From Asanoa ishikariensis (GTDB lineage Bacteria > Actinomycetota > Actinomycetes > Mycobacteriales > Micromonosporaceae), in NCBI RefSeq assembly GCF_900107455.1, contig NZ_FNQB01000001.1, positions 930,001-994,000 on the forward strand: a stretch of 64,000 nt of DNA, in the 5' to 3' direction. Position 1 is the first letter of the stretch. Each line of letters opens with the position of its first letter. The position numbers were made by a program, and so were the translations under genes. Below are positions 18,555-29,658 of the stretch, piece after piece. The notes under the pieces were generated by a model, which saw nothing but the letters and a program-made list of their open reading frames with translations, did not search any database and was not told the DNA's origin.

Positions 18555-19858
18555 GACCGTGCCTCCAATGCGGACAGTGCCCGACTGGCCGTCGGCCCGT
18601 CGGCGGGCGAGAAGTAGGGGTTGACGGCGCGCACCTGCCGTAGGGCGGACAGCGCACCCGGCTGGTCGCCCAGGGACAGGAGCGTCATGCCGAGGTGGTA
18701 CGCGTAGCCGGCGTTGCGCGGCGACCCGGCGACCGCCCGCCGCAGCAGCGGCAGCGCCTCGGAGTCGCGCCCGGCCGTATGCAGTGACCAGCCCAGCGCG
18801 TCGGCCACGTCGGCGAACGGCCGCCGGCGCCACTCGGCCTGGGCCAGCCGCACGGCCGCGGCGGCGTCCCCCCGGGCGAGTGCGAGCTGCGCGCCGGTCA
18901 GGTCGTCCTGCCCGCCGTTCGCGACGAACAGCGTGTGCGCCGCCTCGGCGAGCGTGAGCTGGCGCTGCGACTCGGTGGTCCGGCCGGCCAGCTTCAGCAG
19001 CGTGGCGTACTCCAGCAGGGTGTCCGGGGTGGGCGTGCGGGCGGCGACCGTGCCCGCAGCGGTGACCGCGGCGGCCAGATCGCCCTGCGCGGCGGCGACC
19101 CTGGCCCGGCCCCGGAGCAGCGCCAGATAGCCGGGGTTGGCCGACAGTCCTGCCGCGTACTCGCGCGACGCGGTCGAGAGGTCACCGGTCGACCAGGCGA
19201 GGTCGCCCAACTGGTTGCGGCAGAAGGCGATGTCGGCCGGGTCGACGGCGGCGTCCAGCGCCCGCCGCATCAGGTCGGCGGCCTCGGCGGCCTCGCCGCG
19301 CTGTTCGAGGTCGTAGGAGGCGCGGGCGTACGCGGCGAGCCCGGGCCGCAGGTCGAGCATCCGCTGGATCGCGGTCGTCGCGGCGGCGGGGTCGCCGAGC
19401 TGGGTGTGCGCGTCGGCCAGCACCCCGTACGCGTCGGCGTCGAAGGGGTTGGCCTTCAAGGCGTCGGTGGCGAACTTCCGCGCGGCCGCGAACTCGTGCC
19501 GGGCGTTGGCGAGCGCGCCGAGTCCGACGAGGGCAGCCGGGTTCTCCTTCGGTTTCACCGCCAGTGAGCGCTTCAGCGCCCCTTCGGCCTTGGGGTAGAG
19601 GCTGGGGTCGGCGGTCACCCGGGCCTGCTCGACGTAGGCGAGCCCGAGTGCGGCCCAGGTCTGGTGGTCGCGGGGCAGGGTGCGCAGCCGTTCCTGGGCC
19701 CGGCCGATGTTCGCGGCCAGCCGGTCGGGTGCCACAGCGGGGGCGGCCGTGGACGACAGCGACGGCGCCGGCTTGCGAAGGCCGAACACCGCACCGGCAC
19801 CGAGCAGGGCGACGGTGGCGACGGCCACCACCACGACCGTCCGAAGGGGAGTACGCAT
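18551..19858 (-). CDS. Membrane-anchored tetratricopeptide-repeat protein
   Basis: A 435-residue protein with one N-terminal membrane anchor (VVVVAVATVALLGAGAVFGL), a Ser/Pro/Ala linker, and then about ten helix-turn-helix TPR units, such as TWAALGLAYVEQA and YAYHLGMTLLSLGD. TPR arrays hold protein partners together; here they face outward. ATG 19858 follows a GGAAGGA ribosome-binding site, and longer in-frame extensions lack homology. The gene lies between DUF4331 and NicO and overlaps the latter, so it may organise a DUF4331-permease complex at the cell surface. Confidence 0.85.
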   Translation of the reverse strand: MRTPLRTVVVVAVATVALLGAGAVFGLRKPAPSLSSTAAPAVAPDRLAANIGRAQERLRTLPRDHQTWAALGLAYVEQARVTADPSLYPKAEGALKRSLAVKPKENPAALVGLGALANARHEFAAARKFATDALKANPFDADAYGVLADAHTQLGDPAAATTAIQRMLDLRPGLAAYARASYDLEQRGEAAEAADLMRRALDAAVDPADIAFCRNQLGDLAWSTGDLSTASREYAAGLSANPGYLALLRGRARVAAAQGDLAAAVTAAGTVAARTPTPDTLLEYATLLKLAGRTTESQRQLTLAEAAHTLFVANGGQDDLTGAQLALARGDAAAAVRLAQAEWRRRPFADVADALGWSLHTAGRDSEALPLLRRAVAGSPRNAGYAYHLGMTLLSLGDQPGALSALRQVRAVNPYFSPADGPTASRALSALEARS

Positions 19859-19920
19859 GAGCGGGGTCCTTCCGGGAAGGCGGGGCGCGCCCCAGGTTTG
19901 GGACGCGCCCCGTGCACCTG

Positions 19921-21588
19921 TCAGAGCTTTACGGTGTCGTCCGGAGCCGGGCCGGCTGCCGAGGTCGTTGCCGCCACCGGTCGCTGTCGGCGGAACCACC
20001 AGGTCACCAGGACCAGGGCCAGCAGGAGCGTGCCGAGCACGGCGACGGTGAGGACCGAGCCGGTGCCCATGTCGTCGGACGCCGCGGCGGCGGCCGGCGA
20101 GAGGGACGGCGCCGGAGAGTCGTCGTCACTTGGCGGCACGATCGCCGGCGCGTTCGGGTCGGCGGCCGCGCTGCTCTGGCCACCGTTGACCGCACCCACG
20201 TTCGGCAGTGCCACGTACGGGAACTGGCCGCCGAACTGGTTGTCGTTGGCGTCCACCTTGTCGCCCGCGGCGAGCGCGTCGACGAGCTGGCCGGTCTGCG
20301 CCGCGCCCTCGACCGCCTGGATCGAGATGTCAACCGCGTCGTCGGTCAGCCGCCGGCCGTTCGGGAAGCCCTGTAGGTCGCCACCGAGCACACCGAGCCG
20401 GTTGGGCTGGTCGGCGACCGGCACGCCCAGGTTGAGCCGGAGCATCTCGGAGGGCTGGAACCGCTTGGCGTTGACGTCCTTGTTGTTGAGCTGCGAGTTG
20501 AGGTCGGCCTTGATCGGACCGCCGGCCTTGGTGGTGATGCCGGTCAGGAAGATCTCGACCAGGTCGTTGCGGGGTGTGGCCGGCGCGGGCACGCCGTAGA
20601 TGCCCTCGATCAGCTTGGGCAGCTCGGGGTCGGTGACCCGCTTGACGACGGCCGGGATGCCGGCGTCCTTGTCCGGTGAGATCGAGTTGAACGCGTCCTT
20701 CAGGTTCGCCGGCACGACGACCTCGTTGACCAGCGGGTTGCCGAGCCGCGAGACCTGCACGCGCTCGCCGCGGATGCCGTTGGTGCTCTGGCCGGTGACC
20801 CGCACCTTGGCGCGGTCGGTGGTGGTCCAGATGCCGACCACGGGGTTGCGGTTGGCGTCGCCGCGCAGTGCCACGTCCTTGAACGGCACCTGGAGCGCGA
20901 TCGTGTTGACGTTGTAGCCGGCGAGCGTGTCCTGACCGGTCTCGCTCAGGTCACCGCCGTACAGCAGGTCGAAGACCCGCAGGTCGAGGAAGAACGGGTC
21001 GTCGGCCTGGCCGGCGAACAGCTTCCAACCACCGTCGAGCTTGATCGTCGCCTCGTCGCGGAGCTTCTGGTAGTCCGGCATCGACGCGTTGCCGATCCGG
21101 GACGGCGCGACCGGTGCGTTGCTGACGCGGGTCTTGAACGGCCCGCCGTTGAACGACGTCTCCAGCTTGTAGGTCTGCTTGAACAGCAGGTTCGGGTCGT
21201 CGAACGAGTCGACCGGCCCGTTGTTGTAGAGGAACGTCGAGCCGCCGCGCTTGTCGATGTTCTTGAACGTGTAGCGGAACACCGCGTCGGCGCGCGCGTC
21301 GCCGTCGTTGTCGATGTTGATGTTGTACGCCGCGTCGGTCGCGAACGGATAGAAGTTCGGCCCGCCGTTGGGCTCCTCGAAGGGGATCCAGTTGGCGATC
21401 AGCGTCACGTAGTCGGGCCGTTCGGGGCTGACGAACGCGTACAGGTCGGTGTTGTCGGCGGCCGGGTCGCTGGCGATCAGCGGCGCCTCGCGGTGGCTGG
21501 ACGCCACCGTCGGCTGCGGCCCGAGCGCGGCCAGCGCGATGCCGGTTACGGCGAGCGCCGCGAGGATCGCGCGGGGTTTTCTGGTCAT
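19921..21588 (-). CDS. DUF4331 family secreted/anchored protein
   Basis: A 555-residue exported protein. The signal peptide (AILAALAVTGIALAALG) is followed by the DUF4331 core, with its typical start SSHREAPLIASDPAADNTDL and repeated Asp/Asn-rich turns (NIDNDGDARAD). Near the C terminus come a Pro/Ser/Asp linker and one transmembrane helix (VLTVAVLGTLLLALVLVTWW) with Arg after it, so the bulk sits outside the cell attached to the membrane. Function of DUF4331 is unknown. It is the first gene of the operon ending with the SigK-like factor; its ribosome-binding site is buried in a predicted hairpin. Confidence 0.9.
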   Translation of the reverse strand: MTRKPRAILAALAVTGIALAALGPQPTVASSHREAPLIASDPAADNTDLYAFVSPERPDYVTLIANWIPFEEPNGGPNFYPFATDAAYNINIDNDGDARADAVFRYTFKNIDKRGGSTFLYNNGPVDSFDDPNLLFKQTYKLETSFNGGPFKTRVSNAPVAPSRIGNASMPDYQKLRDEATIKLDGGWKLFAGQADDPFFLDLRVFDLLYGGDLSETGQDTLAGYNVNTIALQVPFKDVALRGDANRNPVVGIWTTTDRAKVRVTGQSTNGIRGERVQVSRLGNPLVNEVVVPANLKDAFNSISPDKDAGIPAVVKRVTDPELPKLIEGIYGVPAPATPRNDLVEIFLTGITTKAGGPIKADLNSQLNNKDVNAKRFQPSEMLRLNLGVPVADQPNRLGVLGGDLQGFPNGRRLTDDAVDISIQAVEGAAQTGQLVDALAAGDKVDANDNQFGGQFPYVALPNVGAVNGGQSSAAADPNAPAIVPPSDDDSPAPSLSPAAAAASDDMGTGSVLTVAVLGTLLLALVLVTWWFRRQRPVAATTSAAGPAPDDTVKL

Positions 21589-21592
21589 CTCT

Positions 21593-21624
21593 GTCCTCCC
21601 GTCAGGGGATGCCTGCGGGAGGAC
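21593..21624 (-). promoter_or_regulatory. Hairpin that buries the DUF4331 ribosome-binding site
   Basis: GTCCTCCCG (21593-21601) and CGGGAGGAC (21616-21624) form a perfect 9-bp stem with a 14-nt loop. In the leftward mRNA the 3' arm contains the Shine-Dalgarno sequence GGGAGGA just upstream of the DUF4331 ATG, and the 5' arm is its exact anti-Shine-Dalgarno. Translation of the whole DUF4331-SigK operon could be gated by melting or refolding of this stem. Confidence 0.6.
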
Positions 21625-21677
21625 TTCGATACACGACCGGGTGCCGGATTGGTCGGAGTCGGCTTCCTGTCACCAAC

Positions 21678-21704
21678 CCATCCGGATGCCCCGCGGCTCC
21701 GAAT
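21678..21704 (+). promoter_or_regulatory. Possible SigK-type ECF promoter facing right
   Basis: CCATCC (21678-21683) and CCGAAT (21699-21704) with a 15-nt spacer resemble, from memory, the promoter elements described for mycobacterial SigK, though the spacer is a little short. It points towards the caspase-EAL gene, about 250 nt away, and lies next to the operon that encodes a SigK-like factor. It could be coincidence. A 5-3-5 dyad TGGCA-N3-TGCCA at 21865-21877 is the only other notable element before the gene. Confidence 0.3.
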
Positions 21705-21957
21705 AGCCGCGCCAGGACCGGTAATACCTGGCCAGGGTTGTTGTCAGCATCTGCGCAGGACCAGATGTCGGGCTAAGCGGACTAAGCGTCCAATTAGGGC
21801 GGTTCGGGCGCTCGGAAGCGATCAAAAACGGCGTAACGGGCGGTCGACCCGTTCTTTAGCCACCTGGCACATTGCCAAGTGCCGTTGCGATTGACGTGTG
21901 CCGAGTTGTTTTCGTGTCAACGCTTACTGCACCATGACCTCTTGGCCATTGGGAACC

Positions 21958-24294
21958 ATGGCCAATGCGGAGAGCAACCAAATAGCAGCGGCGCGTAGCC
22001 CCGTGTCGCTAATGGCCGTGGAGGCGGAGCCCGTGGGCGGTCGACGCGTGGCGGTAATTGTCGGCGTGAACGATTGTGGCTTGGATGCGGCGTTGCCGAG
22101 CCTGCGTTACGCCGAGGGTGACGCGCGCGCCGTGCACAAGGCTCTGACCGATCCCGTCACGGGCGGATTCGCTGCGGCTGACGTGTTTCTGCGCACGGGA
22201 GCCGAGGCGGACGCCCGCGGTCTTCGGACTCAGTTGCGGGCCATCACCGAAGAGTCCACGAGTTCCGACACGCTTTTCATTTACTTCGCCGGCCACGCTT
22301 TGACCGCGGACTGGCACGGAATCGCCGACGATTATCTGGTTACGCCGGATCTGCGGCGGGCCGCGTTGAACGAGCATCCGGACGAGGGCCTGCGAATGGC
22401 ATTCCTGCGGGGTGAGGTCCTCGACAGATTCAAAGGCCACGCGTTTCTTGTTCTCGACTGGCAGCACGCCGGGTCGTACGTCGGTGCCGGTGCCGAGCAG
22501 ATCGAGATGATGCGGGTCGGCGGGCGGCATTCGAAACAGCACAGCGTGCTGATGGCCTCGCCCAGGAAGGGCGGCTCCCGGGAGCCGGAACCGCTCGGCC
22601 ACGGCCTGCTGACCAAGCACGTGCTCGACGCCCTCGACGGCAAGGCGGCCGACGGCGAAGGACTCGTGACCTTCGGCGCCATGACGGATTATGTGGTCGA
22701 GCGGGACATCGATCCCGAGCCGGACCTGTTCGTGCAGTCGCGCGGGACGACGACGGTCTTGACGCGCCCGGGCATCCGGACGTCCGGCGCCGTGGGCGCC
22801 GTAGTGGACCCGCTGCCGGCCAATGTGCGGATCGTCGACCTGGCGAACCCGCTGGAAAGGTCGGCCGCGGCGATCGTCGAACTGCTGGTTCGGGTTTTTC
22901 CGCGCCACACCTCGCCTGTCCGGTCGCCGACTTCTTCCACCACAGGGGCGTTCGGAGCGACCAGCGAAGGCCCACATCCCGCGCGCAAGCAGGAAAAGAC
23001 GGAGCTGGTGCGGGCCGCGATGGAGGCCGACGCCGCGGCGGTGCTCGAATACACGAATTCGGGGTTCGTGACGATATCCGCGACGCGGCGCTTCCACGAG
23101 GACGACCTGCATTACCTGCTGCGCGGTACCGCGCAGTACACGTCGTTCCCGCTGCGCAGCCACGTCCTGGAGGGAACCTCTGTCGGTCGGGTGCTGTGCG
23201 TCCCGCTGCGCCATGGCCTGGAGACCTCGCTCGTCCTGGTCGTGGTCAACCCGGCCCAGGCCCTGCTCGACATCGGCGAGCCGCTGGCCAAGATCCTGGA
23301 GGCGATCTGGGCCAACGATCTCAGCGGACCCGTGGAAGAGGGCGAGATCGCGGTGCTCACCGCCCTGCGCGAGAGCTTCGGCCGACTACCTCCGCGGCTC
23401 TACAGCCGCTGCTTCGAGTTGTACCGCCAGGTGGTCGGGTCCTTCTCCATGGTCTTCCAGCCGATCGTCGCCATCGACGGCATGCAGCAGTACGTCGACA
23501 TCCACAGCTACGAGGCGCTCGCCCGGCTGAACGCGGCCGACCCGCGGGCTCCGCGCGACCTGATCCGCCTCGCACACGTCTGGGGCGACGAGTTCGTGAT
23601 CGAACGCGACGAGGCGATCCTGCGAAAAGCGATCCAGTCGTACGCCGAAGCCCATCGGCAGTGCTACGGCGACAACGCGGGTGCGCCGCGTCCCGTCTCC
23701 ATCAACGTCGCCGTGCGCTCGTTGCTGAGCAACCCCTACGTCGACGCGGTCGAGCGGACGATCGCGGCCGCCGGGTTGCGACCGAGCTCGGTCACGCTGG
23801 AGATCTCCGAGCAGGACCCGATCGAGCCGCGCCCGTACGAATTCTGGGGCGACGACAAACTGGGCTACTTCCACGAACGGCTCGTGGCGATCGCGGACCG
23901 TTTGGACATCCGGTTCGCTGTCGACGACTTCGGTGTCGAGCACTCCTCGGTGTCACGCATGGCGGAGCTGCCGCTCACCCAGATCAAGGTCGACCGGGCG
24001 CTGTTGCGCCATCCGTTGGCCTACCAGGAACTCGAGTTGGTGGCCAAGGTCGCCCGACACCCCGTCAAGATCGGGCAATCGCCGGCTCGCCGGAGTGTGG
24101 TCATAGAAGGCGTCGAGGACGATTCGCCGATCAGCCTGCACCGGATCTACGGTCTCGGAATCCGGCACGTCCAGGGATTCATCACGGGAGAGCGGCCGGC
24201 GCCGACGATCAAGCGGGAGATCGGTCGCGAAATGCGTGAGCACCTCGCCTCCCTGGTGCGCGGAAACCGCGGTCCGCTGCGCAAGAGCGCCTGA
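21958..24294 (+). CDS. Pseudo-caspase (peptidase C14 fold) fused to an EAL domain
   Basis: About 778 residues with three parts. Residues 25-270 are a caspase/metacaspase-like p20 fold: VAVIVGVN, then SLRYAEGDARAVHKAL, and the His loop IYFAGHALT (His113). At the catalytic Cys site the family motif DxCHSG reads DWQHAG (Gln169), so the protease is probably dead. Residues 350-470 look like a degenerate GAF-type sensor. Residues 490-745 are an EAL domain with YEALAR (Glu519), LEISEQ, VDDFGVE (Asp656, Asp657), IKVDRALL, VIEGVED and QGF all present, which suggests c-di-GMP hydrolysis or binding. No membrane segment is visible. The start is uncertain: GTG 21898 and others are in frame. Confidence 0.82.
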   Translation: MANAESNQIAAARSPVSLMAVEAEPVGGRRVAVIVGVNDCGLDAALPSLRYAEGDARAVHKALTDPVTGGFAAADVFLRTGAEADARGLRTQLRAITEESTSSDTLFIYFAGHALTADWHGIADDYLVTPDLRRAALNEHPDEGLRMAFLRGEVLDRFKGHAFLVLDWQHAGSYVGAGAEQIEMMRVGGRHSKQHSVLMASPRKGGSREPEPLGHGLLTKHVLDALDGKAADGEGLVTFGAMTDYVVERDIDPEPDLFVQSRGTTTVLTRPGIRTSGAVGAVVDPLPANVRIVDLANPLERSAAAIVELLVRVFPRHTSPVRSPTSSTTGAFGATSEGPHPARKQEKTELVRAAMEADAAAVLEYTNSGFVTISATRRFHEDDLHYLLRGTAQYTSFPLRSHVLEGTSVGRVLCVPLRHGLETSLVLVVVNPAQALLDIGEPLAKILEAIWANDLSGPVEEGEIAVLTALRESFGRLPPRLYSRCFELYRQVVGSFSMVFQPIVAIDGMQQYVDIHSYEALARLNAADPRAPRDLIRLAHVWGDEFVIERDEAILRKAIQSYAEAHRQCYGDNAGAPRPVSINVAVRSLLSNPYVDAVERTIAAAGLRPSSVTLEISEQDPIEPRPYEFWGDDKLGYFHERLVAIADRLDIRFAVDDFGVEHSSVSRMAELPLTQIKVDRALLRHPLAYQELELVAKVARHPVKIGQSPARRSVVIEGVEDDSPISLHRIYGLGIRHVQGFITGERPAPTIKREIGREMREHLASLVRGNRGPLRKSA

Positions 24295-24431
24295 GGGCCC
24301 GAGGGCTGTGGGGTGTCCGGCTGCGCGCGGCCTTCGCGGAGCCGCTCGACGACGTCCAGGCGGTGCTGGCGCGAGCGCTCCGCGAAGACCTCAGCCTGTC
24401 AGGGGCGTCGGGCGTCGCATCGTCCCCAGGG

Positions 24432-24944
24432 TTAGTTTCCCTCGATGCCCCTGGCCCAGGTGAAGATCTGGTTCTGCCCACCGTTGCAGGTGAACTGGAG
24501 CAGCTTGGCCCCGTTGGCCGTGCCGTTGTTCTGGACGGTCAGGCACTTCCCGCTCTTCACATTGCGGATCGTCAGGTCCGCGGGCAGCGTCCACAGCTCG
24601 TTCAGGCCGATGTTGCACGCGTACTGGATGACCGGCGTGTTGTTTGTCGTCTCGGCATTCAGGACCGTGAGGCACTTGCCGGTCTGGATGTTCCAGATGT
24701 TGTACTCCCCGTTGTAGATCTCTTGGATGTAGAAGAGCTGGTTCCCCTTGTCCTTGCACGTGTAGATGGTCAACTGCACGTTGTTGAACGTTCCGTTCGG
24801 CACATCGACGCACTTTCGCGACTGGATGCCCTGGATCTGCCATGGTCCGCGAACCTCGGCCGCGGCAGGCGACTGCGGCAGCACGACCGCCGCCGTGACG
24901 AGCACGACGAGGGCGAGAACGGAACGAAACAAGCGTCTGCGCAC
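24432..24944 (-). CDS. Secreted ricin-type beta-trefoil lectin
   Basis: About 170 residues: a signal peptide (RRRLFRSVLALVVLVTAA, cleavage after AAA) and one complete ricin B-type beta-trefoil. Its three repeats each carry the Q-x-W/F-type core: NQLFYI, NELWTL and NQIFTW. Each also has the disulfide-forming pattern with KC and a following C (SRKCVDV, GKCLTV, GKCLTV). There is no catalytic domain, so this is a free carbohydrate-binding protein released by the cell. GTG 24944 is preferred because AAGGG lies upstream and the signal peptide then begins with Arg; ATG 24968 would add eight residues, two of them acidic. Confidence 0.85.
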   Translation of the reverse strand: MRRRLFRSVLALVVLVTAAVVLPQSPAAAEVRGPWQIQGIQSRKCVDVPNGTFNNVQLTIYTCKDKGNQLFYIQEIYNGEYNIWNIQTGKCLTVLNAETTNNTPVIQYACNIGLNELWTLPADLTIRNVKSGKCLTVQNNGTANGAKLLQFTCNGGQNQIFTWARGIEGN

Positions 24945-25150
24945 GGGGGACCCTTCTTCGACGGACATCGACGTCCAAGGATCATCGCAATGACAGATGC
25001 GTATGTCCATACTCATCAGACACCGACGTGGAACGCGATGCCATATCGGTGACGAGCCGAAGCAGGATGAGCACAACGAAGGCAGCGTTGGACGTGCCGT
25101 CCTCGGGCGGGCGCCCCACGCCGTTCGGACCGAGCCCCTAAGATCGGCCG

Positions 25151-26206
25151 ATGCGGTGGAACCGGGGAAGATCCGTTGCCGAGCTGTGCACGGAGTTGGC
25201 CGAGGCGATCGACCGACAGGACGAGGGCGCGGCGCAGAAGGCTTTCAAGGAGATCGTCGGCGAGGTGGAACGCGCCGACGCCGCCGCCCTCACCGAGGCG
25301 CTGGTCGCGTTGCGGCCGGCGCTCGCGGAGGTGCCACTGGGCAACGGCGCGCCGCTGGCCGCGCTGGCCGGCGGACTGGTCGAGGCGGGCGGCGACCCGG
25401 CCGCGGCGCTCGACGTGCTGGCTTCGCGGGTGGCGGAGGGCCTGGAGCAGGCTTCGCGGTTCCCGGCGCTCGCCGGCACCGAGGTGGAACCGCCCACCGA
25501 CGGGGAGTCCGCACGGGCGATCGTCGAGCGGGTCGCCGAGGCCGGCGGGTTCGACGTCGACGAGGCGTCGCAGGTGACCCAGGCGTGGTTCACGGTCAAC
25601 GAGTGGATCCCGGCGCTGCTGCTGCCGTTGCAGCAGAAGGCGGGTCGGGCGGCGTTGCCGCACCGGCAGCGGCTGATCGAGGCCGCGTCGGTCGTGCCCG
25701 ACGAGATCGCCGACGCGCACTGGCTGCTCGGGCTGTTGCTGGTGCTCGACGACGAGCCGCTGGTCGTGGTGCATCGCGCGTCCGAGGCCGTTTTCCTGCT
25801 CACGATCAGCGGCGTCGGCGACAACTTCCAGCTTCACACCCTGCTCGCCGACGCGCTGGTCGGCGGTGGGCACCTGCCGGGCGAGCCGCCGGAGCCCTCG
25901 TGGGTGGCCGCGGCGAGCGACGGGCCGCTCCAGCCGCAGGGTCCGATCCACGGGCAGTTCAACCTGGTCGACGCCGGCGGCAAATGGATCTGGAACGAGG
26001 GCCGTCCGGTCGACGTCGAACCGGTCGCCGGCCGTCGGATCATCGTGCTCGACCCGGCGCCGTACGACCGTACGTGGAATGTCGGTCGGGTCTATCCGCT
26101 GATGCTGCCGGAGGTCCGGCTCGACGCCGTGTTGCCGCCGGACCAGGCGGCGGGCTGGCTGCGGTTGGTCAGCCCGGCAAAGGACGACCGCCCGGGTCCA
26201 ATGTGA
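25151..26206 (+). CDS. Uncharacterised acidic protein (actinobacterial hypothetical)
   Basis: A 351-residue cytosolic protein rich in Ala, Glu and Asp. Its N-terminal 120 residues look helical (ELCTELAEAIDRQDEGAAQK, then EVERADAAALTEALVAL), followed by a mixed alpha/beta domain with several Trp residues (AWFTVNEWIPALLLPL, GKWIWNEGR). No signal peptide, membrane segment or catalytic motif is recognised. Codon use and third-position GC match the neighbours. A 12-bp terminator hairpin starts inside its last codons and ends the unit. No function is proposed. Confidence 0.75.
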   Translation: MRWNRGRSVAELCTELAEAIDRQDEGAAQKAFKEIVGEVERADAAALTEALVALRPALAEVPLGNGAPLAALAGGLVEAGGDPAAALDVLASRVAEGLEQASRFPALAGTEVEPPTDGESARAIVERVAEAGGFDVDEASQVTQAWFTVNEWIPALLLPLQQKAGRAALPHRQRLIEAASVVPDEIADAHWLLGLLLVLDDEPLVVVHRASEAVFLLTISGVGDNFQLHTLLADALVGGGHLPGEPPEPSWVAAASDGPLQPQGPIHGQFNLVDAGGKWIWNEGRPVDVEPVAGRRIIVLDPAPYDRTWNVGRVYPLMLPEVRLDAVLPPDQAAGWLRLVSPAKDDRPGPM

Positions 26207-26218
26207 ACCCGGGCGGTC
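26186..26218. terminator. Bidirectional terminator hairpin
   Basis: GACCGCCCGGGT and ACCCGGGCGGTC form a perfect 12-bp stem with a 9-nt loop that contains the stop codon of the upstream gene. It lies between two convergent genes (the stop at 26206 and the ahcY stop at 26229) and has no T-run on either side, as is usual in high-GC actinomycetes. Confidence 0.75.
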
Positions 26219-26228
26219 GCTTCGTGTC

Positions 26229-27674
26229 TCAGTAGCGGTAGTGCTCCGGCTTGTACGGGCCTTCGACGTGCAGGCCGAGGTACTCCGCCTGCTTCTTGCT
26301 CAGCTCGGTGAGCTGGACGCCCAGCGAGTCGAGGTGCAGCCGGGCCACCTTCTCGTCGAGGTGCTTCGGCAGCGTGAACACGGTGTTGCCGTACTCGCCC
26401 TGCCACAGCTCGAGCTGGGCCATCACCTGGTTGGCGAACGAGCACGACATCACGAAGCTCGGGTGCCCGGTCGCGTTGCCCAGGTTCATCAGCCGGCCCT
26501 CGGAGAGCACGAGGATGGCGTGCCCGTCCGGGAATCGCCACTCGTGCACCTGCGGCTTGACCTCGATCTTCTCGACGCCCGGGACCTTGGCCAGGCCGGC
26601 CATGTCGATCTCGTTGTCGAAGTGACCGACGTTGGCGACGATCGCGTTGTGCTTCATCCGCGACATGTGGTCCGCGGTGATGATGTCGACGCCGCCGGTC
26701 GTGGTGATGAAGATGTCGGCCTGGCCGACCACGTCCTCGAGCAGCACGACCTGGAGGCCGTCCATCGCCGCCTGGAGCGCGCAGATCGGGTCGATCTCGG
26801 TCACCACGACGCGGGCACCCTGGCCCCGCAGCGCCTCGGCCGAGCCCTTGCCGACGTCGCCGTAGCCGCAGACCACGGCCAGCTTGCCGCCGAGCATCAC
26901 GTCGGTGGCCCGGTTGAGGCCGTCCGTCAGCGAGTGACGGATGCCGTACTTGTTGTCGAACTTGGACTTGGTGACCGAGTCGTTGACGTTGATCGCCGGG
27001 AACAGCAGCGTGCCCTCGCGAGCAAGCTCGTAGAGCCGGGTAACGCCGGTGGTGGTCTCCTCGGAGACGCCGCGCATGCCGGCCGCGATCCGGGTGAAGC
27101 GCTGACCGTCCTGGCTCACGCTGGCCCGCAGCGTCTCCAGGATCAGGCGGTACTCCTCGTGGTCGTCCTCGGTGGCCGCGGGAACCTGGCCGGCCGCCTC
27201 GAACTCGACGCCCTTGTGCACCAGCAGCGTGGCGTCGCCACCGTCGTCGACGATCAGGTTCGGGCCCTGGCCGTCACTGAAGTCGAAGAGGCGCATCGTG
27301 CACCACCAGTACTCCTCCAGCGTCTCGCCCTTCCAGGCGAACACCGGGGTGCCGTTGGGCGCGTCGACCGTGCCGGTTCCCACGACGACCGCGGCGGCGG
27401 CTTCGTCCTGTGTGGAGAAGATGTTGCAGGACACCCAGCGGACGTCGGCACCGAGCGCGACGAGCGTCTCGATGAGCACGGCCGTCTGCACGGTCATGTG
27501 CAGCGAACCGGCGATCCGGGCACCCCGCAGGGGCTGCTGGGCGGCGAACTCGCGGCGCAGCGCCATCAGGCCCGGCATCTCGTGCTCGGCGAGGCGGATC
27601 TGGTGCCGACCGGCGGTGGCGAGGTCGAGATCGCGCACGGCGAACTCGACACCGTTGATGTTTTGGACGTGCAA
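26229..27674 (-). CDS. ahcY: S-adenosylhomocysteine hydrolase
   Basis: A 481-residue cytosolic enzyme that splits S-adenosylhomocysteine into adenosine and homocysteine, clearing the inhibitor of SAM-dependent methylation. Family motifs are complete: [29 protein letters not shown] with the catalytic Lys/Asp/Asn, the NAD+-binding [18 protein letters not shown], and the C-terminal KPEHYRY whose Lys-Tyr reach into the partner subunit. The start is TTG 27674, 5 nt after AGGAGG; no ATG fits the conserved N terminus. Both the start and the Shine-Dalgarno lie in a riboswitch expression platform. The gene converges on a hypothetical gene across a shared terminator. Confidence 0.95.
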
Positions 27675-27769
27675 AGGGCACCTCCTGTGACAGGAGGCGC
27701 CCTTGGGAATCACTTGGCCTGGTCGAGCGTGGCGGACCTCGTTGTCCGTCGCAGCGCCTCTCGACTGGC
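27672..27769 (-). promoter_or_regulatory. SAH riboswitch (translational ON switch) before ahcY
   Basis: Read on the minus strand, the leader carries the hallmarks of the SAH aptamer. P1 is GUCGAG/CUCGAC (27760-27765 with 27722-27727), extended by GGCC/GGCC. The conserved GGCGCUGCGAC leads into P2 (GGAC/GUCC), followed by CCACGCUCGAC. A pseudoknot pairs GAGGCGC (27754-27760) with GCGCCUC (27694-27700). The 3' pseudoknot strand can instead form a 14-bp stem (27691-27704 with 27674-27687, one G-U pair) that traps AGGAGG and the first base of the TTG start. SAH binding should favour the pseudoknot and free the ribosome-binding site. Confidence 0.82.
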
Positions 27770-27786
27770 CCGTCCACCATAACGCG

Positions 27787-28449
27787 TCACCGCGACGGCG
27801 ACACAAGCCCCATTTCAAAGGCCATGATCACCAGGTGTACGCGGTCGCGTGCGTCGAGTTTGGTGAAGAGCCGCGCGACGTGGGTCTTGGCCGTGGCCAC
27901 GCTGATCACCAGGCGTTCGGCGATCTCCGTGTTGGAAAGGCCCTGGCCGACGAGGGTGAGCACCTCGCGTTCCCGTTCGGTGACGGCGGCGAGCGCCTTG
28001 GGGCGCACTGTTTGTGCTTGGTGCGGCCGGCCGGCGAACTCGGCGATCAAGCGGCGGGTGACGCTCGGTGCGATCAGACCATCGCCGGCCGCGACGACCC
28101 GGATGGCGTCCAGGATGTCGTCGAGCGCCATGTCCTTGACGAGAAACCCCCCGGCGCCGGCCCGCAGAGCGCCGTAGACGTTGTCGTCGTCATCGAACGT
28201 GGTCAACATGATCACGTGGGCGACCGAGCCGGCCTCGACGATCTTGCGGGTGGCGGTGATCCCGTCCATGACCGGCATCCGGATGTCCATCACCACCACG
28301 TCGGGTGCGAGCTCCCGGGTGAGGTCGACGGCCTGGGCTCCGGTGCCGGCCTCGCCGATCACCTCGAGGTCGGGCGTATCGGCGATCAGCACCCGCAGGC
28401 CGGCCCGGACCAGCGGCTGGTCGTCGGCGAGGAGAACCCGGACGGTCAT
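27787..28449 (-). CDS. NarL/LuxR-type two-component response regulator
   Basis: A 220-residue regulator. The receiver domain has the acidic pair in [15 protein letters not shown], the phospho-acceptor Asp in [12 protein letters not shown] and the conserved Lys in [10 protein letters not shown]. The C-terminal LuxR helix-turn-helix is [20 protein letters not shown] followed by [20 protein letters not shown]. It overlaps the kinase gene by 4 nt, marking a cognate pair. No target is evident nearby; the ahcY leader lies directly downstream but has its own riboswitch. Confidence 0.94.
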
Positions 28450-29591
28450 GCCTGATCCGCCGGCAACGGCAGGGTGGCGCGGACCTCGAAACCGCCCTCG
28501 GGGAGCGGGCCGGCGGTCAGTTCGCCGCCCAGGAGAGCGGCCCGTTCGCGCATGCCCGGGATGCCGTAGCCGGTGCCGCTGTCGATGCCGCCCCGGCCCG
28601 CATCGCTAACGACGATGGTGAGTGCGGGTAGTGCGTACCCGATGATGATCGTGCAGTTCTCGGTCTGTGCGTGCCGGACGATGTTGGTGAGCGCTTCCTG
28701 GATGATCCGGTACGCGGCGAGATCGACGTCAGGTGGCAGCACCCGTGGCTCGCCCTGGATGCTCACCCTGGCGCGGACGCCGGCGGCTTCTGTTGTCGCC
28801 ACGAGGCTGTCGAGCTCGGCCAGCCCGGTGGTCGCGGTCGCGGCGGGCTCGGCGTCACTGCGGCGCAGGGCGACCAGCGTGCGCCGCAGCCCGGCGAGCG
28901 TCTCCCGGCTGGCGGTCTCGATCGTGTCGAGCGCCTTACGCGCCTCCTCGGGCTGCGTGTCGATCACCCGGCGCCCGACCCCGGCCTGGATCGCGATCAC
29001 GCCGATGCTGTGCGCGACCTGGTCATGCAGATCGCGGGCGATCCGCAACCGCTCGGTGGTCACGGCGTCGGCGGCAGCCCGGGTGAGCAGGGCGGCGCGA
29101 TAGTCGCGGCGTTGCCGCAGCGCGGTGCCGGCCAGCCAGGCGAGGAGGACGCCGAGCAGGAGAGCGACCAGCACGTTGACGTAGGTGTCGCCGCCCCCGG
29201 TGTAGATCGTGGCCGCGGCGCCCTCGGCAACGATGGCGGTGAGCACCGCGCTGACTGTGGCGATCCGCGACCTGGTGGCCGCGATGTAGACGACCGCGAC
29301 GTCGAGGACCACGGCCTGCAGGAAGCCCACGAGCCCCGTGATGTTGAGCGGTGCCAGCCCGACCACACCGAGCAGCAGACCGACGAACCCGACCAGCGGC
29401 CAGCGCGTCAGCAGGAAAGCGGGCAACGCGAGCACGAGCACCGGCAGCACCGTCTCGGGCCCGGTGATGTTCTCGCCCGTGCCGAATGCGACCGCGAGGG
29501 AGAGCGCGATCGGGTACGCGGCGAGCAGGACCCAGGACGTGGCAGCCGAGGGGATCCGGGGATCGACGGGGCGGGGAACGGTGGCTTCCAT
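28446..29591 (-). CDS. Two-component sensor histidine kinase (HisKA_3 type)
   Basis: A 381-residue membrane kinase. The N-terminal half holds about five membrane spans without a large sensor loop, so it may sense the membrane itself. The dimerisation helix carries the phospho-His in RIARDLHDQVAHSIG. The ATPase lid is compact: ALTNIVRHAQTENC, then VSDAGRGGIDSGTGYGIPGM and GFEVRATLPLP. It overlaps the response-regulator gene. It is the usual actinomycete NarL-class architecture; the signal is unknown. Confidence 0.92.
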   Translation of the reverse strand: MEATVPRPVDPRIPSAATSWVLLAAYPIALSLAVAFGTGENITGPETVLPVLVLALPAFLLTRWPLVGFVGLLLGVVGLAPLNITGLVGFLQAVVLDVAVVYIAATRSRIATVSAVLTAIVAEGAAATIYTGGGDTYVNVLVALLLGVLLAWLAGTALRQRRDYRAALLTRAAADAVTTERLRIARDLHDQVAHSIGVIAIQAGVGRRVIDTQPEEARKALDTIETASRETLAGLRRTLVALRRSDAEPAATATTGLAELDSLVATTEAAGVRARVSIQGEPRVLPPDVDLAAYRIIQEALTNIVRHAQTENCTIIIGYALPALTIVVSDAGRGGIDSGTGYGIPGMRERAALLGGELTAGPLPEGGFEVRATLPLPADQA

Positions 29592-29658
29592 GCTGCCGAT
29601 GGTAGATATCCGCAGGTGAGAGCGCGTCGGCCCAGGGGCGTACGACCTCGGGCTGACG

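Follow-up and report, generated by a model that had tools for sequence, protein, structure and literature searches.

A caspase-like/EAL fusion protein of Asanoa ishikariensis with a replaced caspase cysteine, and its relatives among the Micromonosporaceae

The fusion gene, its genomic place and its distribution

The stretch of DNA analysed here, 64,000 nucleotides from Asanoa ishikariensis (NCBI RefSeq assembly GCF_900107455.1, contig NZ_FNQB01000001.1, positions 930,001 to 994,000; hereafter the window), carries on its + strand at 21958-24294 a gene for a caspase-like/EAL fusion protein. The open frame encodes a product of 778 aa with an N-terminal caspase-like domain, a middle region and a C-terminal EAL domain. 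That both domains share one ORF had been proposed in a preliminary description made from the sequence alone, and was confirmed by PF00563 for the EAL domain and by NF047832 and hhalign for the caspase-like domain. The N-terminus is uncertain because alternative starts lie upstream (GTG 21898) and downstream (ATG 22012) of the ATG at 21958, and as several relatives start close to an MGGRR/VGGRR motif (their starts having been picked by script near the match), translation may really begin downstream of 21958. A scan for consensus promoters gave no + strand site ahead of the gene. Conservation of the protein in three relatives within the genus, at 86, 74 and 71% identity in three genomes, places the gene beyond chance.

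The gene lies in a 3449-bp block (21686-25134) that is missing from the same-genus genome G004, which has no caspase-EAL gene and in which the matches to the flanks 19000-21685 and 25135-29647 are 52 bp apart; the gene is therefore accessory. That its genomic place is fixed is shown for G004 and supported by neighbours common to the loci L012, L047 and L048; the contig of another genome, G003, ends before the right flank. The block contains, besides the caspase-EAL gene, a ricin-type lectin gene (24432-25076, - strand), and no lectin gene was called at the homologous locus L012 by the crude gene caller that was used. The divergent neighbour at 19921-21588 (- strand) encodes a DUF4331 protein which is ~90% identical in G003 and G004, and the frame at 25151-26206 (+ strand) encodes a 351-aa protein with no Pfam match at E 0.1 and with homologues in L012 and in G004 (82% identity).

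The genus Asanoa belongs to the Micromonosporaceae, and four of the six genus genomes had a caspase-EAL relative, as did 32 of 250 sampled genomes of the family, the genome of the window being included in both counts. Asanoa hainanensis NZ_FZPH01000022 carries a relative with 86% identity. A sample of the order gave relatives in 4 of 298 genomes, all four of them Micromonosporaceae, and a sample of the phylum gave one in 396, the window's own genome; two to three candidates were scored per genome among the matches listed for these two samples, and no member of the family was seen outside the Micromonosporaceae in either. The fusion is thus as rare as the preliminary description had supposed. 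The viral contigs scanned held no caspase relative and one EAL relative.

Domains of the fusion protein

The caspase-like (p20) region occupies 22039-22827 (+ strand; residues 28-290). The best NCBIfam match of the window protein was NF047832, a caspase of the EACC1-associated type, at residues 31-248 (E 4.2e-19; 68.9 bits against a cut-off of 140 that applies to the whole protein), and the same model matched 29/29 family members at E 0.01. In the window protein Pfam recognised the EAL domain alone, with no caspase at E 0.1; Pfam Peptidase_C14 matched 21 of the 29 members at E 0.01, the window protein not being among them. When the window protein together with L012 was compared by hhalign with four caspase domains of its own genome (from four of the five caspase loci seen there), the probability was 97.9% with E 6.3e-13. 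NF047832 and hhalign together place a p20-type domain of the peptidase C14 kind in the protein, on the evidence of sequence. A profile of 15 N-terminal domains (A2) matched plant metacaspases in the PDB, the best at E 7.5e-7, with a scoring stretch that ends at the His loop and ~0 bits over the Cys-site stretch. AlphaFold2 models reached a mean pLDDT of 38 (alignment A5: window, L012, L104 and L013) and 34 (A6: window and L012), so they neither support nor refute the p20 fold.

The family alignment (A1) comprised 29 of the 32 homologues; G061, which is truncated, and G197 and G229, whose loci the family search had not returned, were added for a second tree. Asp55 (22120-22122, + strand) and Asp167, which by metacaspase work we take to be residues of the S1 pocket, are kept in 29/29 rows; against the PDB metacaspases Asp55 aligned with the metacaspase Asp within the significant stretch, and Asp167 in a non-significant stretch only. 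The His loop YFAGHA (22282-22299, + strand) is kept, as had been noted preliminarily, with His113 (22294-22296) at the position of the catalytic His. The Cys site reads DWQHAG (22456-22473, + strand; Asp167, Trp168, Gln169), where the 15 rows that keep the dyad have Asp-Cys-Cys. It aligned in hhalign with DCCFSG of the own-genome caspases, and this and the family alignment both put Gln169 at the Cys position, in keeping with the replacement of the caspase Cys claimed earlier. As the homologue L009, from another genome, has the same Trp and likewise no Cys, a sequencing error behind DWQ is unlikely. The window protein accordingly has His113 and, in place of the Cys of the catalytic dyad, Gln169, which is a p20 domain with a substituted dyad as in pseudo-orthocaspases. 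A catalytic Cys elsewhere had been named as the finding that would overturn this view; the sole Cys before residue 414 is C40, and it lies far from the Cys site. The 15 His/Cys rows share 48 invariant caspase positions; the window protein keeps 46 of these and differs at exactly two, by C168W and C169Q, and L009 keeps 44.

The middle region (22990-23397, + strand; residues 345-480) is not recognisable as GAF. A GAF domain had been considered from its look and was not supported, as hhalign gave a probability of 0.5% against 16 of the 25 GAF_2 matches of the own genome, and no GAF was among the Pfam matches of seven middle regions of the family. A short MshEN match below the Pfam cut-off was seen in two of these seven, at L015:2398-2799 (E 0.0096) and L016:2410-2823 (E 0.0037), and Pfam gave none in the middle region of the window protein itself. 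MshEN domains can bind c-di-GMP.

The EAL domain (PF00563) lies at 23437-24186 (+ strand; residues 494-743) with E 6.3e-23 and 81.8 bits, above the curated cut-off of 31.3, and its sequence matches in the PDB include MucR, PA3825, DosP and RocR. The residues E519, N583, E615, D656, D657, K677, E717 and Q739, which presumably make up the metal and substrate (catalytic) set of an EAL phosphodiesterase, are identical in 29/29 rows; the Glu, Asp-Asp, Lys and Gln landmarks read from the sequence at the outset are among them. The 15 dyad-kept rows have 74 invariant EAL positions in common, of which a clade of ten homologues keeps all and the window and L009 keep 73. Their single change is Gly661 to Glu in the beta5-alpha5 loop, which is DDFGVEHSS in the window (23923-23949, + strand); the Gly is present in all 15 dyad-kept rows. 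Both sequences thus have DDFGVE where a loop of the DDFGTG type is expected, and seven own-genome EAL loci, examined among 13 matches, have DDFGTG (six) or DDFGAA (one). According to PMC5301497, the DDFGTG-type loop places the metal-binding Asp pair upon dimerisation, so that EAL activity of the window protein is likely and yet not assured; the change G661E in this metal-loop motif may have weakened or abolished hydrolysis.

The dyad and the small partner gene across the family

Both His and Cys are present in 15 of the 29 rows of A1, and likewise in 15 of 31 scorable homologues, G061 being unscored. The dyad-kept rows include the same-genus L010 and L011, both with DCCRAG. At the dyad site the window has HQ, L009 HR, L038 HS, and L039 and G197 QC. 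In the clade of ten, Ala or Val stands in place of the Cys; two members retain the His, the other eight have Q, R, S or G instead, and all ten have lost the Gly that follows the Cys site. G229 has no caspase. On an unrooted tree built from the columns after residue 340 only, the dyad label needs at least three changes, the Cys three and the His four, and since other caspases have the Cys, these changes probably represent losses. By this comparison the apparently dead state of the caspase in the window is derived, its same-genus relatives L010 and L011 keeping DCCRAG, and the predicted loss of the dyad is recurrent within the caspase-EAL family. The alignment of the Cys site over homologues that had been recommended agrees with the initial reading, the Cys being replaced in the window and L009 and intact in 15 rows. 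As a separate observation, the frame L101 (G229:C34, 4262-5698, - strand) is 479 aa long and has the middle region and EAL left, with no caspase domain found.

A gene of ~108 aa overlaps the 3' end of the caspase-EAL gene in 12 of the 32 homologous loci (L014, L016-L024, L027 and G061/L037). When 26 genomes were searched whole, this small partner was found in five (G061, G242, G129, G221 and G211), always adjoining a caspase-EAL gene, which in G211 is a second, broken copy. The same whole-genome search found no partner in the 16 dyad-lost genomes, in the six genomes of the genus or in G202, which like G001 and G005 keeps the dyad; no partner-like ORF occurs within the window or in its own genome. 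Over 31 rows, from which G061 and the second G211 copy were left out, the dyad was kept with an adjoining partner in 11, kept without one in four (L010, L011, L015 and L025), lost without a partner in 16 and lost with a partner in none. With three independent pairs on well-supported branches this association cannot reach significance. Loss of the partner before the dyad is also not a rule, as two damaged genes still have it: G061 (L093, G061:C1) misses its first 198 residues including the dyad and has the small partner intact beside it, and the second G211 copy (L092, G211:C3) is broken in the caspase region with the partner likewise intact.

Scans of four partner proteins gave no Pfam or NCBIfam match above cut-off and no EACC1, the best match below threshold being BT_MCC_alpha (E 0.0071). 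Compared by hhalign with 16 EACC1 domains, the partner gave a probability of 60% (P 8.6e-5 over 46 columns), and the controls gave P 0.73 for the partner against GAF and P 0.21 for the middle region against EACC1. The hydrophobic stretch of the partner is placed as in EACC1, with best 19-residue means of 1.6-2.0 as against 1.0-2.2; such a stretch alone is no proof of a membrane helix, because a value of 1.68 also occurs in the window protein, at residue 412. These comparisons suggest a weak resemblance of the partner to EACC1. The preliminary description had contained neither the partner gene nor the derived and recurrent loss of the dyad, nor G661E.

Possible roles of the two halves and known systems

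Within the reach of sequence comparison, the family is shown to have a caspase related to the EACC1 type, an apparent loss of the nucleophile with the scaffold kept, the EAL landmarks, recurrent loss of the dyad, and a partner in 12 of 32 loci. We consider it fairly probable that the gene product is a c-di-GMP phosphodiesterase (EAL) placed under a regulatory pseudo-caspase module, which would descend from a partner-activated protease switch; that the pseudo-caspase acts by binding is plausible. In the two-gene EACC1-caspase conflict systems, EACC1 is proposed to act as the sensor and the caspase to cleave itself (Kaur et al. 2020, PMC7159879), and activation of the caspase by the partner is carried over here from that proposal. 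In the ancestral form, a small EACC1-like and possibly membrane-associated partner would switch on the caspase, and a cut by the activated caspase, perhaps in its own linker, would change or free the EAL unit. The partner would then have gone in the genus of the window, and the nucleophile would have been replaced on the branch of the window. With the partner gone and the nucleophile replaced, control of the EAL half in the window lineage would no longer be proteolytic, and such control, if any, may be conformational or work by binding through the pseudo-caspase. A more far-reaching version is put forward tentatively and is, taken whole, rather unlikely: a Micromonosporaceae switch of membrane-linked partner, caspase and c-di-GMP phosphodiesterase, of which the protease step was dismantled repeatedly while the messenger enzyme was kept, and in the window lineage a change of both active sites on one branch (C168W, Cys169 to Gln/Arg, G661E), which would leave a c-di-GMP-responsive scaffold with a pseudo-caspase working by binding.

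It is possible, although we hold it less likely, that the EAL phosphodiesterase alone is in use and the caspase half is a decaying remnant, a dead N-terminus in the course of being lost. Relative to the EAL half, the caspase half changes faster in dyad-lost than in dyad-kept pairs, which makes a partly relaxed remnant a serious rival. The ratio of caspase to EAL dN (NG86, 500 codon bootstraps, chosen pairs) was 2.65 [1.69-4.85] for window/L009; four further dyad-lost pairs gave 3.25-8.53, six bootstrapped dyad-kept pairs 0.93-1.77 and the dyad-kept pair L018/L022 ~2.0 (no bootstrap). Relaxation in the branch of the window itself is not clear-cut, since its interval of 1.69-4.85 overlaps some dyad-kept intervals (for example 0.99-3.50). 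The reduction of G229 to the middle region and EAL, the truncation of G061, and the eroded His site and lost Gly in the clade of ten point towards decay too. Against it, the window protein has an intact reading frame, keeps the His and has changed just two Cys of 48 invariant positions, and its caspase omega with L009, 0.26 [0.19-0.38], is clearly below 1, and six dyad-kept pairs span a range (0.07-0.33) that includes it; the EAL omega of the same pair is 0.083. The putatively dead caspase is constrained, less so than the EAL half, which fits a binding module and slow decay alike. The pseudoenzyme scaffold of the preliminary description is upheld by the 46 kept positions and the omega value and qualified by the faster change of the caspase half in dyad-lost pairs.

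An unlikely possibility is that both halves have changed their role, the EAL half having become a c-di-GMP receptor or decoy without hydrolysis and the pseudo-caspase a partner-binding one. Known EAL domains of the receptor type have usually lost some metal or substrate residues, whereas the eight residues that we take for this set are all present here, and DDFG, the first four letters of the loop, is kept. The one change among 74 invariant EAL positions, Gly661 to Glu, does fall within the DDFGTG-type loop and arose on the same branch as the change of the Cys. This loop is described as moving to place the metal-binding Asp pair (PMC5301497). The sub-threshold MshEN matches in two of seven middle regions would also suit a receptor, but the middle region of the window protein has none. 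That the caspase half still cuts, with C40 or a Ser/Thr close to the site serving as nucleophile, is very improbable even with His113 and Asp167 kept. C40 precedes the His, and L011, L014 and others do not have it; at the catalytic position itself stand Gln (window) and Arg (L009), which are not nucleophiles.

Returning to the favoured reading of a phosphodiesterase under a pseudo-caspase, its nearest known counterparts are the EACC1-caspase systems, which according to PMC7159879 combine, in actinobacteria, an N-terminal EACC1-associated caspase with a variable C-terminal domain. The window family has a comparable layout, its caspase being a candidate for the EACC1-associated type by a best NCBIfam match below the cut-off. 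The EAL domain of this family is such a variable effector or signalling domain, and the overlapping small gene with its hydrophobic stretch in 12 of 32 homologous loci adds to the likeness. The family differs in that its partner is 3' and weakly EACC1-like, the window has neither partner nor nucleophile, and an EAL domain is not named in the main text of PMC7159879. Pseudo-orthocaspases (Klemencic et al. 2019, PMC6426788) resemble the window protein in having a p20 with a replaced His-Cys dyad; for Actinobacteria that survey gives 3 of 636, the dyads YS, YA, FS, QC and HA are named there for Rhizobiales, and its main text does not mention 'EAL'. The Micromonosporaceae proteins differ in being fused to EAL and in having HQ (window), HR (L009) and other dyads. 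A cyanobacterial caspase-GGDEF protein (Asplund-Samuelsson et al. 2012, PMC3501461) joins a caspase to a c-di-GMP turnover domain, as here, but GGDEF makes c-di-GMP and the report concerns a single sequence, its main text likewise being free of the term 'EAL'. MucR, PA3825, DosP and RocR share with the window protein the presumed metal and substrate residues, and differ from it in that the window has the loop DDFGVEHSS, not of the DDFGTG type, and an N-terminal pseudo-caspase. No caspase-EAL protein in print was found in the text of the open PMC literature as far as it was searched. There are precedents for EACC1-type caspases with variable C-termini, for pseudo-orthocaspases and, in one protein, for a caspase-GGDEF fusion; what is new here, within the reach of that search, is a caspase-EAL family in which 12 of 32 loci have a ~108-aa partner gene that overlaps the 3' end.

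Bacterial proteins with EACC1-type caspases are discussed as parts of conflict systems (PMC7159879), and c-di-GMP controls development in sporulating actinomycetes (PMC4151990). A caspase wired to c-di-GMP breakdown would, if true, tie conflict machinery to a developmental messenger. The family also forms a natural experiment, with relatives having and lacking the nucleophile, having and lacking the small partner, and one kind of EAL throughout, so that protease and pseudo-protease roles in the control of a messenger enzyme can be tested with natural proteins.

The window has no EACC1 gene beside its caspase gene. Its genome gave three EACC1 matches, all on contig C3, the window being on contig C2, and each is overlapped by a DCC[FY]SG caspase frame or has one within ~1.2 kb. 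At one locus (L096, G000:C3:898500-905000), a DCCFSG caspase frame is followed by a weak EACC1 match, in the same order as the small partner follows the caspase-EAL gene.
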